From the NCBI RefSeq assembly GCF_003966955.1, contig NZ_AP019367.1:620001-684000 (forward strand): 64,000 nt of DNA, written 5' to 3'. The notes under the pieces were generated by a model. That model was not told the origin of the DNA, ran no database searches, and worked only from the letters and a program-made list of their open reading frames with translations. Of the stretch, positions 21,746-55,612 are shown piece after piece. The stretch's first letter is position 1. Each line of letters opens with the position of its first letter. A program made the translations under genes and the position numbers. Origin of the DNA: Parolsenella catena (GTDB taxonomy: Bacteria; Actinomycetota; Coriobacteriia; Coriobacteriales; Atopobiaceae).

Positions 21746-21963
21746 GCGAAACCTCACGGGGCCCGGCCCCCAACCCCTTCCAGGGGACCGGGCCTCACCA
21801 ACCTGCCCAGGAGCGGCCCAAAGGGCTTTGACACCTTTGGGCATGGGCACCAAGCAAGGCATCACCGCGGGCAACCCGCGTGATACATACGGCGCAGACC
21901 CCCAACTGCGTCAAAGGCAAACCCCGGGAAGGGACACCCGGGACAATCAAGAAGGAGTGCATC
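21746..21963. other. Four consecutive hairpins between uxaA and the SDR gene
   Basis: Within 218 nt: a GGCCCGG/CCGGGCC stem (about 21760-21795), GCCCAAAGG/CCTTTGGGC (21816-21842), CGCGGG/CCCGCG (around 21870) and CCCGGG/CCCGGG (around 21927-21946). None has a T-tract. They could stabilise or process the mRNA and uncouple expression within the operon. Confidence 0.5.
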
Positions 21964-41659: not shown

Positions 41660-41698
41660 GGCGCGTCCCAAAGGGGTCTGACAGCTTTGGGACGCGCC
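41660..41698. terminator. Shared hairpin between the M18 gene and the convergent small gene
   Basis: A perfect 14-bp inverted repeat (41660-41673 with 41685-41698) and 11-nt loop, without a T-tract. Its inner CCCAAAG/CTTTGGG matches hairpins at 21816 and 51189. Confidence 0.55.
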
Positions 41699-47926: not shown

Positions 47927-49042
47927 CTAGCGGCCTTGGAGCCTCAGCGCCACCGAGCAGGCGAGGCGGACGTCGGCATCGTCGAGGTCAAGTCCGCTTA
48001 TCTCGCGGACCTGCTCGAGGTGGCGGATGCAGGTGCTTCTCGTGAGGAACAGGTCGCGGGCGGTACGCGTCACGTTGCGGTCGCGGTCGAGGTAGCCCCT
48101 CAGCAGGCGCGTGAGCTCGGTGCCGTGCGTGCGGTCGTGCTCCATGAGGGCGAGGAGTCCGGTCGGGGTGAGCGCGTCGGGGATCTGACGCAGGCGCACG
48201 CGGCGCAGCATGTCGTCGAGCAGGTAGTCCCCGTAGCGCCAGCACGCCTCGCCCGGTGCCCTTAGGCTGCCGAGTCGGGCCGCGGCGAGCGTTTGGTTGT
48301 AGTAGTAGAACGTGTTCTTGAGGTCGGCGTAGCCGGTGCTTGCGCCCACGGCGAGCAGCCCGGGCACGAACACGCCGCTGATGCGGCGCAGCATCCCCTC
48401 CTCGTCCGTCCCCGCCCTCGTGAGGTTGCACACCACGACGAGGTGCTCGCCGTGCAGCACGCACGCGAGCTGGCCCACGAGCGCCGAGAGCGAGGCCGCC
48501 GTGGCCCCGAGGCGCTCCTGGCTCTGCCCTCGCTGCACCGACGCAACCGAGACGCACAGGTAGTGGTCGTGGACTGCCCAGCCAAACGCCGCAGACGCCG
48601 CCTCGATGCGTCGCTCGTCAAGCAGCCGGTGCGCGAGAAGCCCCTCGAGCACGAGCTCGAGCTCCCGTGGCTGACCCTCCTCGGCAAGCTGGCCGCGCAT
48701 GGAGCGCTCCCACTCGTCGTGTCGGGCAAACGAGCGCGTCACGCGGGCGAGCAGCGACCGCGCGTCGACGGCGCGCTCGTCGCACCACAGCACGTCGAGG
48801 TTGCCGTGTCGCCAGGCGGCCGGGGGCTCGCCCACGCATATGACCGAGGCTACGCCCCGCGCGGCCGGATGCTCGGGAAGCTCGCCTGCCTGCGCCACGT
48901 AGACCGGCCCCTCCTCGAGCGGCTCTGCGGGCACGTAGGGTAGCGCGAACGTGCACGAGCGCGTCGCCGCGCCAGGCGCGAGGTGGCTCGAGAACTCGAG
49001 CGGCGCGAGTTCGTCTCGCAGGATCTGCAGGTTGAGTCTCAT
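47927..49042 (-). CDS. PucR-type transcriptional regulator
   Basis: 371 residues. The C-terminus carries the PucR/CdaR helix-turn-helix (LLRGYLDRDRNVTRTARDLF, TRSTCIRHLEQVREISGLDL), preceded by a GGDEF-like CdaR region (FGWAVHDHYLCVSVAS to VPGLLAVGAS). The N-terminal half is poorly conserved. Such proteins activate catabolic genes in response to an unknown ligand. Divergent from fhs; a cluster of repeated motifs lies between them. Confidence 0.8.
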   Translation of the reverse strand: MRLNLQILRDELAPLEFSSHLAPGAATRSCTFALPYVPAEPLEEGPVYVAQAGELPEHPAARGVASVICVGEPPAAWRHGNLDVLWCDERAVDARSLLARVTRSFARHDEWERSMRGQLAEEGQPRELELVLEGLLAHRLLDERRIEAASAAFGWAVHDHYLCVSVASVQRGQSQERLGATAASLSALVGQLACVLHGEHLVVVCNLTRAGTDEEGMLRRISGVFVPGLLAVGASTGYADLKNTFYYYNQTLAAARLGSLRAPGEACWRYGDYLLDDMLRRVRLRQIPDALTPTGLLALMEHDRTHGTELTRLLRGYLDRDRNVTRTARDLFLTRSTCIRHLEQVREISGLDLDDADVRLACSVALRLQGR

Positions 49043-49177
49043 GGGAGCCTCCCGTCCCTACGTGGGGTTCATGCACGGGGCCAGCGCATGACCCGCACGC
49101 AGCCAGTCGATTGCCGTGGCGTTTTGTCACGCCCCGAGCGTTGGCGGAGCGTTTCTGCACGCTCGGGCGCCTCGCAG

Positions 49178-49265
49178 CGTGCAAAAGCGCCGCGCGAGTG
49201 ACACCGCCGTGCAAAAGCGCCGCACGAGTGACGCCGTCGTGCGGAAACGCCGCGCGAAGTGTGAC
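49178..49265. repeat. Three 30-nt tandem repeats upstream of fhs/pucR-like gene
   Basis: CGTGCAAAAGCGCCGCGCGA at 49178 recurs at 49208 and 49238 with a few changes, exact 30-nt period. Two inverted relatives lie upstream (near 49118-49135 and 49158-49172, reading CGTGACAAAACGC and CGTGCAGAAACGCT on the minus strand). The rest of the 49043-49514 gap holds an AT-richer segment and the palindrome at 49430. Confidence 0.7.
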
Positions 49266-49429
49266 ACAAACTGTTCCATCATGCTGACACATTTGCCGCG
49301 CTCTGGGGTTTGTCTCGCGCGCCTGCCTCTCTAGAATTCACTTCGTTGAGATAAACGGCCCGATTCTGCACGGAAGCCCGCCAGCTCTCTCGTCCATGCG
49401 CAGAGAATCGGTTGGGCAGACTGTTGCAG

Positions 49430-49448
49430 TTGGCATTCCGCGTGCCAA
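49430..49448. promoter_or_regulatory. Palindrome and -10-like element upstream of fhs
   Basis: TTGGCA-N7-TGCCAA is a perfect 6-bp-arm palindrome. 18 nt further on is GATAAT (49466-49471), a good -10, so the palindrome could overlap the -35 region of the fhs promoter. Confidence 0.45.
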
Positions 49449-49514
49449 GGCGCCACCCAGCGGCGGATAATGGCCATGGCGGGCCCATGCGAGCGAATGG
49501 AGACGGAAATGCCC

Positions 49515-51173
49515 ATGTCAGACATCGAGATCGCGCAGCAGGCGGAGCTGTGGCCCATCGCCAAGGTCGCCGACACGCTCGGCATCACCGACGACGAGCT
49601 CATCCCCTACGGCCGCCACATGGCCAAGGTCGACGTCACCAGGCTCGCGGACCGTCCGCGCAAGGCCAAGGTTGTGCTCGTCACCGCCATCAACCCCACG
49701 CCGGCGGGCGAGGGCAAGACCACGACCTCCGTGGGCCTGGCAGACGCCCTGCGCCGCATGGGCAAGTCCAGCGTGCTCGCCCTGCGCGAGCCCAGCCTGG
49801 GCCCCGTCTTTGGCATCAAGGGCGGTGCTGCGGGCGGCGGCTACGCGCAGGTCGTGCCCATGGAGAACATCAACCTGCACTTCACGGGTGACTTCCACGC
49901 CATCGGCGCGGCGAACAACCTGCTCGCCGCCATGCTCGACAACCACATCAAGCAGGGAAACGAGCTTGGCATCGACCCCAGGCGCATCACGTGGAAGCGC
50001 GTCGTTGACATGAACGACCGCCAGCTGCGCAGCATCGTGTGCGGCCTGGGCGGCGTGGCCAACGGCATGCCGCGCGAGGATGGCTTCGACATCACCGTGG
50101 CCTCCGAGGTCATGGCCTGCTTCTGCCTGGCCACCTCCATCCGCGACCTCAAGGAGCGCCTGGGGCGCATCGTCGTGGGCTACACGTATGACCGTGCGCC
50201 CGTCACGGCCCATGACCTGCATGCCGAGGGAGCCATGGCCGCCCTGCTCAAGGACGCCATCTCGCCCAACCTCGTCCAGACGCTCGAGCACACGCCGGCG
50301 CTCGTCCACGGTGGCCCGTTCGCCAACATCGCGCACGGCTGCAACTCGGTCATGGCCACCGACGTGGCGGCCAAGCTCGGCGACTACGTCGTGACCGAGG
50401 CGGGCTTTGGCGCAGACCTCGGTGCCGAGAAGTTCTGCGACATCAAGTGCCGCATGTCTGGCATCCGTCCCGACGCGTGCGTGGTCGTGGCCACGGTGCG
50501 CGCGCTCAAGCACAACGGCGGCGTGCCCAAGGCCGCGCTTTCCGAGGAGAACCTCGAGGCGCTCGAGGCGGGCATGCCCAACCTCCTGCGTCACGTAGGG
50601 AACATGCGCGACGTCTTTGGCCTGCCCGTTGTGGTGGCCATCAACGCCTTCCCCACGGACACCCCCGCGGAGCTCGCCCTGGTCGAGCGCAGGTGCCAGG
50701 AGCTGGGCGTGAACGTGGCCCTGTCCGAGGTGTGGGCCAAGGGCGGCGAGGGCGGCCTGGCGCTGGCCGAGGAGGTCGTGCGCCTGTGCGAGCAGCCCAG
50801 CGAGCTGCGCTTTGCCTATGAGCTCGGCGGCATCCGCGAGAGCGTCGAGGCCATCGCGCGGCGCGTCTACCACGCAGACGGCGCCGACTTCACGCCCGCG
50901 GCGGCCAAGCAGGTGGCGCAGCTCGAGGAGCAGGGCTTCACGAACATGCCCGTCTGCATGGCCAAGACCCAGTACTCCTTCACTGACGACGCCAAGAGGC
51001 TCGGTGCGCCCGAGCACTTCCGCATCACGGTGCGCAGCGTGAAGGTGGCCGCCGGCGCCGGCTTCATCGTGGCGCTCACGGGCAACATCATGACGATGCC
51101 GGGCCTGCCCAGGCACCCGGCCGCCGAGAGCATCGACGTCACCGACGACGGCCGCATCACCGGCCTGTTCTAA
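49515..51173 (+). CDS. fhs: Formate-tetrahydrofolate ligase
   Basis: Makes 10-formyl-THF from formate, THF and ATP. 552 residues, family length. The P-loop-like [16 protein letters not shown] (Lys68), [19 protein letters not shown] and [14 protein letters not shown] are diagnostic. An ATG at 49509 is an equally possible start; GGAGACGG lies at 49499-49506. Followed by fchA- and folD-like genes, giving the whole path from formate to methylene-THF. Confidence 0.96.
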
Positions 51174-51188
51174 CTGCGACGTCCCGGC

Positions 51189-51217
51189 GTCCCAAAGGTG
51201 CCAGACCCCTTTGGGAC
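51189..51217. other. Hairpin between fhs and the cyclodeaminase-family gene
   Basis: GTCCCAAAGG pairs perfectly with CCTTTGGGAC around a 9-nt loop; no T-tract. A second small hairpin CGGGCACC/GGTGCCCG follows. Same class as 21816 and 41660. Confidence 0.6.
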
Positions 51218-51265
51218 GCTTCGGGCACCTGGTGCCCGCCGGGACATGAGAGGTATGAGAACCGC

Positions 51266-51907
51266 ATGCAAGACCCCCTGATAGACAGGAGCTGCCGAGG
51301 CTTCGCCGAGGCGCTCGCCTCGCGCCAGCCCGTTCCCGGCGGTGGTGGCGCGGCCGCCTATGCCGGCGCGCTCGGCTCTGCCCTGTGCGCCATGGTGGCG
51401 CGCTTCGACGAGGGCAAGCCCTCAATGGCCGAGAGGGGAGACGAGCTCGCCCGCGCCGTGGCCGAGGCGGACGTCATCCGCACGGAGCTGCTCGGGCTCG
51501 TTGACGAGGACGCCCGCGCCTATGCGACCGTCTCGCGCGCCTACGCCATCGACCGCGACGACCCTTCGCGCGCCGATGCCGTCGAGGCGGCGCTTCACGA
51601 GGCGGTCCGGCCGCCCTACCAGATCATGGGGGCCTGCGCCCGCGCGATCGAGCTTCTCGAGGGGCTCTCGCGCTCCTGCTCGCGCCTGCTGCTGTCAGAC
51701 GTTGGCTGCGGCGCCATGCTCTGCCGCGGCGCGCTCGACGCCGCAAACCTCACCGTCTGCGTCAACACCGCCTCGATGCGCGATCGCGCCTACGCGCGCG
51801 AGATAGACGAGCGCTGCGTGGCGCTGCTCTCGGAGTGGGAGCCGCGCGCCCAGGCCATCGCCGACCACGCCATCGGCGTCATGAAGAGGGGGCAGAGCCA
51901 TGGCTGA
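51266..51907 (+). CDS. FTCD_C/FchA-family methenyl-THF cyclohydrolase or cyclodeaminase
   Basis: 213 helical residues of the formiminotransferase-cyclodeaminase C-terminal family: FAEALASRQPVPGGGGAAAYAGALGSAL at the N-terminus, then the helical bundle with NLTVCVNTASM. Standalone members include FchA of Methylobacterium, a methenyl-THF cyclohydrolase. It overlaps folD by 8 nt. As that FolD seems to lack cyclohydrolase residues, the cyclohydrolase role is the best inference. No histidine-degradation gene is nearby to favour the deaminase role. Confidence 0.82.
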   Translation: MQDPLIDRSCRGFAEALASRQPVPGGGGAAAYAGALGSALCAMVARFDEGKPSMAERGDELARAVAEADVIRTELLGLVDEDARAYATVSRAYAIDRDDPSRADAVEAALHEAVRPPYQIMGACARAIELLEGLSRSCSRLLLSDVGCGAMLCRGALDAANLTVCVNTASMRDRAYAREIDERCVALLSEWEPRAQAIADHAIGVMKRGQSHG

Positions 51908-52811
51908 GCTGCTTCGCGGCGCGCCGGTCGCCAACGCCATCATCGACTCGTGCGCCGGGCGCTCCCGTGCGCTCGCGGATGCCGGCGTGGCGCCCACGCT
52001 TGCCGTCGTGCGCGTGGGCGAGCGGCCCGACGACCTCTCCTACGAGCGCGGGCTGCTCAAGCGTGCCGAGCGCGCCGGCGTCACCGTGCGCCGCGTGGTC
52101 CTTGCCGAGGACTGCTCGCAGGCAGACCTCATGCGGGCGGTCGCGGATATCAACGCCGACGCGTCCGCCCACGGCTGCCTCGTGTTCCGCCCGCTTCCAG
52201 CACACTTGGACGAGCGGGCCGTGGCAGCCGCGCTCGCGCCGTCCAAGGACGTGGACTGCCTCACGCCCGCCTCGCTTGCGCACGTCTTCTCGGGCGCGGG
52301 TGCGGGCTTTGCCCCCTGCACGGCCGAGGCCGTGGTGCGCGTGCTTGGGCACTACGGCGTGCCCCTTGCCGGCGCCGACGTCACGGTCGTGGGGCGCTCG
52401 CTCGTCATCGGGCGTCCCGTCGCCATGCTGCTGCAGCGCGCGGACGCCACGGTGACGATGTGTCACAGCAAGACGGCCGACCTCGCGCGTCGCTGCCGCG
52501 AGGCGGACGTGCTCGTCGTGGCGGTGGGTCATGCCCGCGCGATCGGCGCGGACGCCCTGCGCGCCGGGCAGGTCGTGGTGGACGTGGGCATCAACTGGGA
52601 CGACGGGGCACAGCGCCTCGTGGGCGACGTGGACGAGCGGGCGGCGGATGCCGTCGCGGCCACCTTAACGCCCGTGCCCGGTGGCGTGGGCGCGGTCACG
52701 ACGGCCGTGCTCATGGACCACGTCGTCACGGCCGCCGAGCGCACGGTTGGGCCCAAGGCGGACGGCGCCGGGGCTTATCGTGCCAAACGCGCTCAAGCCT
52801 CGGCCTTCTAG
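51900..52811 (+). CDS. folD: FolD-family methylene-THF dehydrogenase, probably without cyclohydrolase activity
   Basis: 303 residues. Substrate domain about 1-130, then the NAD(P)-binding domain (VTVVGRSLVIGRPVAML, ATVTMCHSKT, DVGIN) and the closing PVPGGVGAVTTAVLM. In the usual bifunctional enzyme a lysine lies four residues after the conserved tyrosine and a glutamine lies in VQLPLP. Here, after Tyr48 (LSYERGLLKR), position 52 is Leu, and the second block reads VFRPLP, with Phe96 in place of Gln. The second aspartate of KDVD (Asp119) is kept. These changes predict loss of cyclohydrolase but retained dehydrogenase activity. Confidence 0.88.
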   Translation: MAELLRGAPVANAIIDSCAGRSRALADAGVAPTLAVVRVGERPDDLSYERGLLKRAERAGVTVRRVVLAEDCSQADLMRAVADINADASAHGCLVFRPLPAHLDERAVAAALAPSKDVDCLTPASLAHVFSGAGAGFAPCTAEAVVRVLGHYGVPLAGADVTVVGRSLVIGRPVAMLLQRADATVTMCHSKTADLARRCREADVLVVAVGHARAIGADALRAGQVVVDVGINWDDGAQRLVGDVDERAADAVAATLTPVPGGVGAVTTAVLMDHVVTAAERTVGPKADGAGAYRAKRAQASAF

Positions 52812-52837
52812 CCCCGTTTTAGGTTCGTTTGGCACGA
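52778..52837. repeat. 12-bp inverted repeat spanning the folD 3' end
   Basis: TCGTGCCAAACG (52778-52789, inside the last folD codons) and CGTTTGGCACGA (52826-52837) form a perfect inverted repeat with a 36-nt loop. The same 12-mer occurs after the YerC-like gene at 19058-19069. Confidence 0.6.
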
Positions 52838-52882
52838 AGTATCGGCCGCAGGTGCCTGCCTGCGGCATTCGAGGAGGAAACC

Positions 52883-53470
52883 ATGGAAAACGAGAACCTC
52901 GGCGTCGACCGACCGCGCGTGGAGGCCGCCGTCCGCGAGCTTCTCATCGGCATCGGCGAGGACCCGGACCGCCCGGGGCTCGTCGGCACGCCGGACCGCG
53001 TGGCGCGCGCGTGCGAGGAGCTGTTCGGAGGCATCGCCGACGACCCGGCCCGTCACCTGCGCAAGCAGTTCCACGAGCCGGGCAACGAGGAGCTCGTCGT
53101 CGTGCGAGACATCCCGTTTCACTCCATGTGCGAGCACCACCTGCTGCCGTTCATCGGCCGCGCGCACGTGGCCTACATCCCGCGTGACGGCCGCATCACG
53201 GGCCTGTCCAAGATCGCCCGCTGCGTGGCGGGCTACGCCGCCCGCCCCCAGCTCCAGGAGAGGCTCACGGCCCAGGTCGCGGACGCCATGGTCGACGAGC
53301 TCGACCCCCTGGGCGTGCTCGTCGTGATAGAGGCCGAGCACACGTGCATGACCATGCGCGGCATCCGAGCGGCAGGTGCCATGACCGTGACGAGCGCCGT
53401 GCGCGGCTCGCTGAGAAGCGACGCGCGCAGCCGCGAAGAGGCCCTGAGTCTGCTGCACGTAAGCGCGTAA
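52883..53470 (+). CDS. folE: GTP cyclohydrolase I
   Basis: First step of folate synthesis, GTP to dihydroneopterin triphosphate. 195 residues. Zinc and catalytic residues are in [12 protein letters not shown] and [24 protein letters not shown] and [13 protein letters not shown] are also family blocks. The ATG at 52883 has GAGGAGG 5 nt upstream. Other pterin genes (folB, folK, folP) are not in the window. Confidence 0.95.
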
Positions 53471-53498
53471 GGTCCGTGCGAGAAGGAATCGAGACCGC

Positions 53499-54935
53499 AT
53501 GACACTATCAACACGCAAGGCGTGGAGGGCCCCGTTCGAGGCCGCCGCGCTCACATACGACGAGGCCCAGGCGATGGCCCATGACACGGGGTTCTTCGGC
53601 AGCACCGACGACCCGCTGCTCGAGACGGTCGTCGAGATGCTCGACGAGCTGGGACGCCCCGACGAGAGCTTTGACGTCATCCAGGTCGCCGGCACGAACG
53701 GCAAGACGTCCACGAGCCGCTACACTGCCGCCATCCTCTCGGGACAGGGGCTCTCATGCGCCCTGTACACCTCGCCCGAGCTCGTCGAGATGCGCGAGCG
53801 CATGGAGGTCGCGGGTGCGCCCGTCTCGCGCGAGGCATTCGCGCGCGGCATCTCCCTCGCGGCCGAGGCAGGCCGGCGCGTGAACGCCTGCCGCGAGCGC
53901 TCTGGCGAGCGTCGCTTTCGCGTCACGGAGTTCGACCTGCTCACGGTGGCCGCCTGCGTCGTCTTCGCCGAGGCGGGCGTCGACGCCGCGGTGCTCGAGG
54001 TTGGACTCGGCGGCCGCTGGGACGCCACGAGCGCCACGAGGCCCGTCATCACGTGCGTCACGGGCATCGGACTGGACCACTGCCGCATCCTCGGCGACAC
54101 CCTCGAGCAGATCGCCGCCGAGAAGGCCGCCGTCATCAAGGCGGGCCAGCGCGGCTGCGTGCTAGGCGTGGGCACCTGGGCCCCCTCGAGCGTGGAGGAC
54201 GTGTTTCTCGCGCGCTGCGCCGAGCAGGGCGTGGAGCCGGTGCTGCTGCGCCCGGCAAGTGCCGCCGACGCCCCCGGCGAGGTCGAGGAGGGCACCACGG
54301 CCGAGCGCCCGGGGCTGCCGCATGCCGGCTACGCCGTGACGCACCGCCCGTCCGCGCTCACAGACCCCCTCGCCCTCGACGTCGCGACGCCGCGGGCCGC
54401 CTACGAGGGCCTCACGGCCGCAAAGCCGCTCTACCAGGCGGCAAACATCGCCTGCGCCGTGACGCTTGCCGAGGGCTACCTCGGCCGCAGGCTCGACGAG
54501 GCGGCTCTCGTGCGCAGCGTCCTCGCCTGCCCCACGCCCGGCCGCTTCGACGCGCTGTCCGCGCGTCCGCTGCACCTCATCGACGCCGCTCACAACCCGC
54601 AGTCGATCCGCACCTTCCTCGACTCGCTCGCCGAGGCGGCCCCGGACGTGGAGGCCCGTCCGACGCTTCTGTGCGCCGTGCTTGCCGACAAGGACGTCGA
54701 CGGCATCGTGGGGCTTCTCGCGCCGGCGTTCCCGCGCGTTGTCGTGACGGCGACGTCGAGCCCGCGGGCGCTCCCGGCGCCCAAGCTCGCCGACGCCTTC
54801 CGCTCACGCGGCGTGGAGCCGGCGGCGACGTATCCCGCCGTTGCCGAGGCGGTGGGCGCGCTCGCTGGCGTCGCCTACGTGGCTGTGGGTTCGATCACGC
54901 TGGCCGGCGAGGTGGCCGGCCTTCTCGGCCGCTAG
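53499..54935 (+). CDS. folC: Folylpolyglutamate/dihydrofolate synthase
   Basis: 478 residues, Mur-ligase-like. Adds glutamate to dihydropteroate or folates using ATP. P-loop VAGTNGKTSTSRYTAAIL, then EVGLGGRWDATSA, GLDHCRILGDTLEQIAAEKA and the C-terminal DAAHNPQSIRTF domain start. It lies 28 nt after folE and shares its transcript by arrangement. An inserted stretch about 245-275 (ASAADAPGEVEEGTTAE) lengthens the protein. Confidence 0.93.
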   Translation: MTLSTRKAWRAPFEAAALTYDEAQAMAHDTGFFGSTDDPLLETVVEMLDELGRPDESFDVIQVAGTNGKTSTSRYTAAILSGQGLSCALYTSPELVEMRERMEVAGAPVSREAFARGISLAAEAGRRVNACRERSGERRFRVTEFDLLTVAACVVFAEAGVDAAVLEVGLGGRWDATSATRPVITCVTGIGLDHCRILGDTLEQIAAEKAAVIKAGQRGCVLGVGTWAPSSVEDVFLARCAEQGVEPVLLRPASAADAPGEVEEGTTAERPGLPHAGYAVTHRPSALTDPLALDVATPRAAYEGLTAAKPLYQAANIACAVTLAEGYLGRRLDEAALVRSVLACPTPGRFDALSARPLHLIDAAHNPQSIRTFLDSLAEAAPDVEARPTLLCAVLADKDVDGIVGLLAPAFPRVVVTATSSPRALPAPKLADAFRSRGVEPAATYPAVAEAVGALAGVAYVAVGSITLAGEVAGLLGR

Positions 54936-55056
54936 GCTCGCCGCTGTGGGCTTGGGATGGCGATTCTTGTCGCGCACTCCCGAGCTGCTACAATCCATTG
55001 AGTTGACTCTTCCGTGGCACCCCAGGCGCCGCTCGACGCAAAGGAGCTCGTCTCAC

Positions 55057-55488
55057 ATGTCGAATCTCATCGACCAGATTCTCACCCCCGAGGTACGCAT
55101 GGTGCTCTACCTCATGCTTGCCTGCGTCGTGATGCTGTACGTGCTGTCCATCGTCTACGTCATCCGTGACGCGCAGCGCCGTGGCGCCGAGCCCTGGTGG
55201 CTGTGGGCCATCATCTCGGTGATCCCCATCGTGGGCCTTCTCGCCTACGTCATCCTTCGCCCGAGCTCCTACCTCGTGGACCGCGAGGAGCAGGACCTCG
55301 ACATCGCGCTTCGTGAGCACCAGCTGTCCCACTACGGCATCTGCCCCAAGTGCGGCACGCCCATCGACAAGGACTTCATCGTGTGCCCCAACTGCAACAC
55401 GCAGGTCCGCAACGTCTGCCCCACGTGCCACCGTCCGCTCAACGCGGACTGGAAGGTCTGCCCCTACTGCCGCACGCGCATCCAGTAG
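55057..55488 (+). CDS. PLDc_N-type membrane protein with double zinc ribbon
   Basis: 143 residues. Two transmembrane helices (about 12-35 and 47-68) with VYVIRDAQRRGAEPWWLWAI and YVILRPSSYL between and after, as in the phospholipase D N-terminal (PLDc_N) membrane module. The C-terminal half has four CxxC pairs (CPKC, CPNC, CPTC, CPYC), forming two zinc ribbons. No catalytic domain, so probably a regulatory or scaffolding membrane protein. ATG 55057 has AAGGAG 10 nt upstream. Confidence 0.7.
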   Translation: MSNLIDQILTPEVRMVLYLMLACVVMLYVLSIVYVIRDAQRRGAEPWWLWAIISVIPIVGLLAYVILRPSSYLVDREEQDLDIALREHQLSHYGICPKCGTPIDKDFIVCPNCNTQVRNVCPTCHRPLNADWKVCPYCRTRIQ

Positions 55489-55512
55489 CGCTCCTGCCCA
55501 AGAGTGATTCCA

Positions 55513-55545
55513 CGAGGCCCCGTCTTCTGGACGGGGCCTCGTTTC
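55513..55545 (+). terminator. Terminator after the zinc-ribbon membrane protein gene
   Basis: An 11-bp stem of GAGGCCCCGTC and GACGGGGCCTC (55514-55524 with 55530-55540) is followed by GTTTCGT, a broken T-tract. Confidence 0.65.
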
Positions 55546-55612
55546 GTACTCGTCAGGCCCGTGCGTTTGTCTCCCGCACGCGCACGCCCGCTTTGTGGTA
55601 AACCATAGGCAT

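Follow-up and report, generated by a model that had tools for sequence, protein, structure and literature searches.

In the 64,000-nucleotide stretch of Parolsenella catena DNA analyzed here (the window), fhs, fchA, folD, folE, and folC all lie on one strand, the forward. The first of them, fhs (49470..51173), encodes a formate–tetrahydrofolate ligase (PF01268, E 3.8e-266; NF010030 above its cut-off); its start is uncertain, with 49509 the likely one. It is followed by fchA (51266..51907), whose 213-residue FTCD_C-family product (PF04961, E 3.9e-50) is predicted to be a methenyl-tetrahydrofolate (THF) cyclohydrolase, and by folD (51900..52811), whose 303-residue product bears PF00763 and PF02882 and is predicted, from alignments and fold, to be an NADP-dependent dehydrogenase only. 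Next downstream comes folE (52883..53470), coding for GTP cyclohydrolase I, with a start picked by eye after GAGGAGGAAACC and a PF01227 match (E 5e-70) obtained on the longer frame 52829-53467, and then folC (53499..54935), a folylpolyglutamate/dihydrofolate synthase gene (TIGR01499 above cut-off). The ATG of folD (51900-51902) precedes the TGA of fchA (51905-51907), so that the two genes have 8 nt in common (51900..51907); a purine-rich AGAGGGGG run lies 5′ of the folD start codon. The first-pass annotation of this DNA had described just such an FTCD_C/FchA-family gene overlapping folD by 8 nt and following fhs, and the positions of these codons, the PF04961 match, and the end of fhs at 51173 bear it out. 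Judging from the overlap, translation of the two genes may well be coupled. The genome, a single contig of 1.80 Mb, has no PF00763 or PF04961 protein other than the two of this cluster, and the nearest named relatives of its FolD belong to Coriobacteriaceae and Atopobiaceae.

Upstream of fhs, a divergent gene on the reverse strand (47927-49042) encodes a PucR-type regulator (HTH_30 + GGDEF_2). Neither an Rfam match nor a forward-strand terminator was found in 49000-55600. The gap between fhs and fchA contains a strong hairpin at 51181-51245 (−45.9 kcal/mol for 51174-51265, z −4.35), which includes the near-palindrome CCAAAGGTGCCAGACCCCTTTGG. This sequence is a dispersed palindromic repeat: it has 17 matches in the genome with at most three mismatches (8 forward and 9 reverse, some places being scored on both strands), as against none for its reversed control, and other copies lie in the window at 21818-21840 (3 mismatches) and 41668-41690 (2 mismatches).

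Residues and folds of FolD and FchA

The FolD motif DDLSYERGLLKRAERAG aligns without gaps with the canonical (A)SxxYVxxKxK. Because the catalytic helix aligns in this ungapped manner, Leu52 (codon 52053..52055, numbered from 51900) falls on the position of the YxxxK lysine, such that Y48 corresponds to Y52, L52 to K56, and K54 to K58 of human MTHFD1. Likewise, VFRPLP aligns with VQLPLP and places F96 (codon 52185..52187, same numbering) at human Q100, while D119, R166, and S190 correspond to human D125, R173, and S197 and are all kept. The first-pass annotation had named the replacement of the lysine by Leu52 and of the VQLPLP glutamine by Phe96, as well as the retention of the KDVD aspartate, and all three readings agree with these alignments; an additional change that it lacked is Asp45 in place of human Ser49. 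It had also considered that Lys54 might fill the catalytic position; as the equivalent of human Lys58 in an ungapped helix, this residue would instead lie two residues beyond it. Thus, both marks of a bifunctional dehydrogenase/cyclohydrolase, the YxxxK lysine and the VQxPxP glutamine, are replaced (L52, F96), and the folate and cofactor residues of a monofunctional FolD-type dehydrogenase are present (Y48, D119, R166, and S190). Human Arg173, the equivalent of Arg166, is taken to be a cofactor residue. The human cyclohydrolase and folate residues and their roles follow PMC6443876 and PMC3368264, and the part that Ser197 plays in binding NADP follows PMC9173628.

The protein is a full-length FolD by fold, with 99.2 bits to PF00763 (cut-off 32.8) and 176.6 bits to PF02882 (cut-off 27). 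Its AlphaFold model has a mean pLDDT of 91.7, and residues 43–59 form one helix. Superposition on human MTHFD1, suggested in the first-pass annotation as a check, gave a close match (1a4i; Z 38.7, rmsd 1.6 over 279 residues), as did that on Campylobacter jejuni FolD (3p2o; Z 40.3, rmsd 1.5 over 282 residues), and Z lies at 36–40 for most FolD structures. Canonical FolD, human MTHFD1 (1a4i), and MTHFD2 share the fold of the window protein over the full chain at 34–36% identity; it differs from them in being devoid of equivalents of Lys56, Gln100, and Ser49. Yeast MTD1, whose structure 1edz is titled as an NAD-dependent dehydrogenase, also shares the FolD fold, but is distant (21% identity, Z 29.2); we take it to be the eukaryotic NAD enzyme that is called monofunctional. 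Among the best 25 of 30 NCBIfam matches, none of the bifunctional FolD models was above its cut-off, the top one reaching 262.6 of 411 bits. Since the closest models are nonetheless named “bifunctional,” annotation by nearest name would mislead.

Substitutions in Escherichia coli FolD speak to what these two residues do. According to PMC5688156, K54N leaves cyclohydrolase activity undetectable and dehydrogenase activity at ~19%, and Q98H leaves ~1% and ~8%, respectively, in line with the first-pass statement that the lysine and glutamine are needed for the cyclohydrolase step. These mutants therefore support loss of the second activity in a FolD that has neither residue. As both substitutions also cut the dehydrogenase activity of the E. 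coli enzyme, FolD proteins of the Lys-less clade have presumably adapted, by compensation, to keep it.

FchA is a stand-alone FTCD_C domain, with PF04961 its only domain. Its nearest solved relative is Methylobacterium extorquens FchA (7vg4; E 1.6e-22, 30% identity), onto which it folds with Z 28.1 and rmsd 1.3 over 202 residues; the Thermotoga maritima cyclodeaminase 1o5h ties with it at Z 27.5, so that the fold is undecisive in a family that also takes in true cyclodeaminases. The match to the FchA equivalog NF045657 (127.3 of 275 bits) is below the curated cut-off, which is also missed by the scanned proteins of genus g16 (see below) and by two clostridial FTCD_C proteins beside fhs (212.4 and 213.8). 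In view of this shortfall and of the tie in fold, the activity of FchA is assigned by context. The M. extorquens and window proteins have PGGGGAAA in common. The dehydrogenase partner of the former is presumably MtdA, which is not a FolD. PGGGG versus PGGGS was considered as a marker of cyclohydrolase versus cyclodeaminase and rejected, in that g16 partners of Lys-less FolD carry PGGGS.

Co-occurrence and linkage across genomes

The census drew on 149 sampled Coriobacteriia genomes, with searches for PF04961, PF00763, PF02971, and PF01268; every listed FolD place was fetched. FTCD_C is found in 58 of the 149, all within the order of the window, 10 other genomes of which are devoid of it; six of the 149 have no FolD match. 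All 59 FolD copies from FTCD_C genomes (58 loci and the window) have neither the lysine nor the glutamine, whereas all 90 copies from the 91 genomes without FTCD_C keep both, the 90 being composed of 89 loci full enough for alignment and one partial locus (L183) in which the two residues are readable. In the 58 loci, the lysine is replaced by Ala (54), Ile (3), or Leu (1), and the glutamine by Phe (40), Leu (15), or Met (3); the window has Leu and Phe. The loss of these residues is tied to FTCD_C in the class and is no chance pattern (59/59 versus 0/90), which is the outcome anticipated by the first-pass suggestion to follow FchA and Lys-less FolD across genomes. All 58 FTCD_C genomes also carry fhs, yet so do 116 of the 149 overall, and Fhs alone is therefore no explanation of the split.

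The two genes are also physically linked. In 56 of the 58 fetched loci fchA adjoins folD; in one (L053) the two are fused, and in one genome (G096) they occupy separate contigs, its locus L094 holding only fchA. The distance from the end of fchA to the start of the folD domain is −16 to +59 nt in 55 of the 58 and 204 nt in L084, and fhs lies upstream on the same strand, inside the fetched stretch, in 39 of the 58. The fusion (L053, 4866-6551; contig C9 of G102) is a single 562-codon frame in which FolD precedes FTCD_C and each of the three Pfam domains is matched, in a genome that carries a separate fchA–folD pair (L040) as well. The FchA and FolD trees also agree in their distances (Mantel test over 75 pairs, r 0.76, p 0.001), as expected of a pair inherited together, although shared species history contributes too.

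One genus, g16, contains both arrangements: 10 sampled genomes have fchA–folD, and nine have a canonical fhs–folD. The same peptidase gene (C69-type by a reading of its protein start, and up to ~3.3 kb from folD) recurs on the downstream side of folD: in 8 of the 10 fchA loci, the contigs of the other two ending first, and in 9 of the 9 loci without fchA. When a tree was built from a gene further downstream, with the related genus g27 as root, the seven fchA genomes fell inside the canonical group as a clade of their own (support 100/100). The canonical FolD proteins of g16 and g27 cluster together (support 99), within a 74-row FolD set (support 99) that presumably represents canonical FolD for the class. 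The simplest reading is that in g16 the canonical folD was replaced by the fchA–folD pair at one site. The pair also occurs in other genera of the family, so that it was likely acquired by transfer between relatives.

Beyond the class, we analyzed 196 genomes, taken as Clostridia since the set is centred on G149, from which a Butyrivibrio locus comes. FTCD_C is above cut-off in 69 of them (70 at E 0.001) and PF00763 is present in 183. FolD was read in 32 of the 69, and 28 of these have no lysine, counting among them G168, which has one FolD of each type; the remaining 37 were judged by score only or have no FolD. Three FTCD_C genomes (G219, G231, and G331) have FolD with both residues only. 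In L208, the lysine codon is unreadable and the glutamine absent, and it was counted as Lys-less in the tally below. Among Clostridia without FTCD_C above cut-off, 45 of 46 FolD proteins keep both residues, these 46 being a nonrandom draw (the 30 with the best scores, 12 with low scores, and 4 that score lower still); the exception, L261, from a 1.2 Mb genome (G197), has neither. PF00763 bit score was discarded as a proxy for the residues, as the low-scoring FolD proteins of G166, G202, and G258 nonetheless keep both. A second type of lysine loss, to Gln with the second glutamine kept, was seen in six clostridial loci (L274, L275, L280, L282, L283, and L284), and FTCD_C is present in 6 of their 6 genomes. 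Separately, an Oligoflexia locus (L024, 3111-5786) encodes a FolD with Ala at the lysine position and the glutamine kept, divergent from an adjoining full formiminotransferase–cyclodeaminase gene.

In a FolD tree of 254 rows, the 101 rows without both residues form one clade with support of 97 (96 when the motif columns are removed). Eight more are without the lysine only: the six clostridial ones with Gln instead, that of Oligoflexia beside a full FTCD, and one on a long branch. For the 251 rows with both traits known, 108 combine FTCD_C with no lysine and 135 have neither change; the exceptions are seven with FTCD_C and the lysine and one Lys-less without FTCD_C. In this tally, the FTCD_C state of L003–L012 and L019–L022 was set from the gene adjoining folD, and some genomes are represented twice, at a minimum by the row pairs L005/L058 and L008/L062. 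The lysine state changes two or three times on the trees (twice on that without the motif columns), and an independent-pairs test was not significant, with on average 0.5 agreeing of 6 pairs; a claim of formal significance for the co-occurrence was accordingly dropped. With so few independent events, the genome counts overstate the statistics, and the linkage is best described as consistent, over few separate events.

Proposed division of the two activities

Taken together, the overlapping fchA and folD very probably replace the usual bifunctional enzyme with a split one. In this arrangement, FolD would be a methylene-THF dehydrogenase that binds folate through Tyr48 and Asp119 and NADP through Arg166 and Ser190. 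Having neither the lysine nor the glutamine required for the cyclohydrolase step, it would leave the interconversion of methenyl-THF and 10-formyl-THF to FchA. Formate would enter as 10-formyl-THF via Fhs, FchA would close this to methenyl-THF, and FolD would reduce the latter to methylene-THF, or the path may run in reverse; we infer the two activities, the NADP cofactor, and the direction of flux. Several lines of evidence support this partition, already proposed in the first-pass annotation: FTCD_C and Lys-less FolD co-occur exclusively in the sampled class, fchA adjoins folD in 56 of 58 loci and is fused to it in one genome, formiminotransferase is absent (see below), the two arrangements exchange at the same site in g16, and E. 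coli mutants have been reported for both positions.

Could FolD still be bifunctional, with Arg97, Glu49, or Lys54 standing in for Lys56 and FchA as an extra or booster? Glu49 and Arg97 do occur together in 81 of 100 rows without both residues, and modelling of MTHFD2 leaves the catalytic base unsettled (PMC9173628). However, both positions vary, with Ser, Met, or Gln instead of Arg97 in 8 of the 100 rows and Gln, Val, Leu, or Arg instead of Glu49 in 11, and a FolD of this kind should occur without FchA, which only one of 109 Lys-less rows does; we regard this possibility as very unlikely. Still less probable is that FchA is a formimino-THF cyclodeaminase and that the cyclohydrolase step proceeds nonenzymatically. 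PF04961 is named after the cyclodeaminase, and spontaneous hydrolysis is thought sufficient in E. coli mutants, according to PMC5688156. Moreover, the FTCD_C gene of the clostridial genome G231 sits amid a histidine-degradation-like set, its neighbours reading, from their protein starts, as formiminotransferase, imidazolonepropionase, and histidine ammonia-lyase; this neighbourhood fits a cyclodeaminase and would explain the canonical FolD there. In the Coriobacteriia, by contrast, formiminotransferase (PF02971) was found in 0 of 149 genomes, that of the window included, with T. maritima matched as a positive control, which makes a histidine-pathway cyclodeaminase an unlikely identity for FchA, and the regular juxtaposition with folD, together with the fusion, argues against it as well. 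Least probable of all is that FolD has decayed or moonlights and no longer serves as a dehydrogenase, as its low PF00763 score might suggest (canonical copies of the class score 122.8 to 159 bits). It is the sole FolD of its genome, the equivalents of Tyr52, Asp125, and Arg173 are kept by all 58 FolD loci of this type in the class, and the clade is maintained over most of an order.

The split replacement may, more tentatively, be extended: fchA–folD could be a self-contained module that displaced canonical folD in place within one genus, whose proteins are physically coupled and possibly channel their intermediate, and whose hosts are insensitive to carolacton-type inhibitors. Physical coupling is suggested by the natural FolD–FchA fusion; the combined proposal is possible rather than probable.

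Known systems and implications

The split itself is already known from acetogens and some clostridia, and is not new in kind. FolD, FchA, and Fhs of Clostridium perfringens, the same three enzymes as here by study title alone, were reportedly studied in E. coli by Aluri et al. in 2016, with FolD said to be monofunctional and FchA the cyclohydrolase. A separate FchA in some microorganisms is mentioned in PMC7219735, which cites that study. A review describes the Clostridium formicoaceticum and Acetobacterium woodii proteins as monofunctional and that of Moorella thermoacetica as bifunctional (PMC9124964), and fchA and a partial folD are listed among three open reading frames downstream of fhs1 in Tepidanaerobacter acetatoxydans (PMC3584212). 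Closest in arrangement is A. woodii, in which fhs1, fchA, and folD bear consecutive locus tags (Awo_c09260–c09280); it shares with the window both the fhs–fchA–folD order and a separate cyclohydrolase and dehydrogenase (PMC10472528; PMC9124964). This likeness is one of gene order and reported monofunctionality, and the A. woodii genes, as those sources present them, differ in clustering with rnfC2–metV–metF of the Wood–Ljungdahl methyl branch, whereas here folE and folC follow.

New here are the exclusive residue rule in the sampled Coriobacteriia, the FolD–FchA fusion, and the exchange in place. The literature search found no report joining FchA, Lys-less FolD, and Coriobacteria, and none with Collinsella and methenyltetrahydrofolate cyclohydrolase together; a single paper mentions Eggerthella lenta alongside formyltetrahydrofolate and cyclohydrolase. 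Judged by gene content, the FchA and FolD split would prevail across most of a single bacterial order. For the reading of genomes, a Lys-less FolD predicts an FchA partner in the same genome. The exchange within a single genus is a natural experiment that bears on what leads cells to separate or combine this step. Finally, carolacton is anchored by K54 of E. coli FolD, and the K54N enzyme is insensitive to it (PMC5688156); most Coriobacteriales are therefore predicted to have insensitive enzymes. If the module proposal is true, organisms that carry fchA–folD would show natural insensitivity to FolD inhibitors anchored on the catalytic lysine, such as carolacton.
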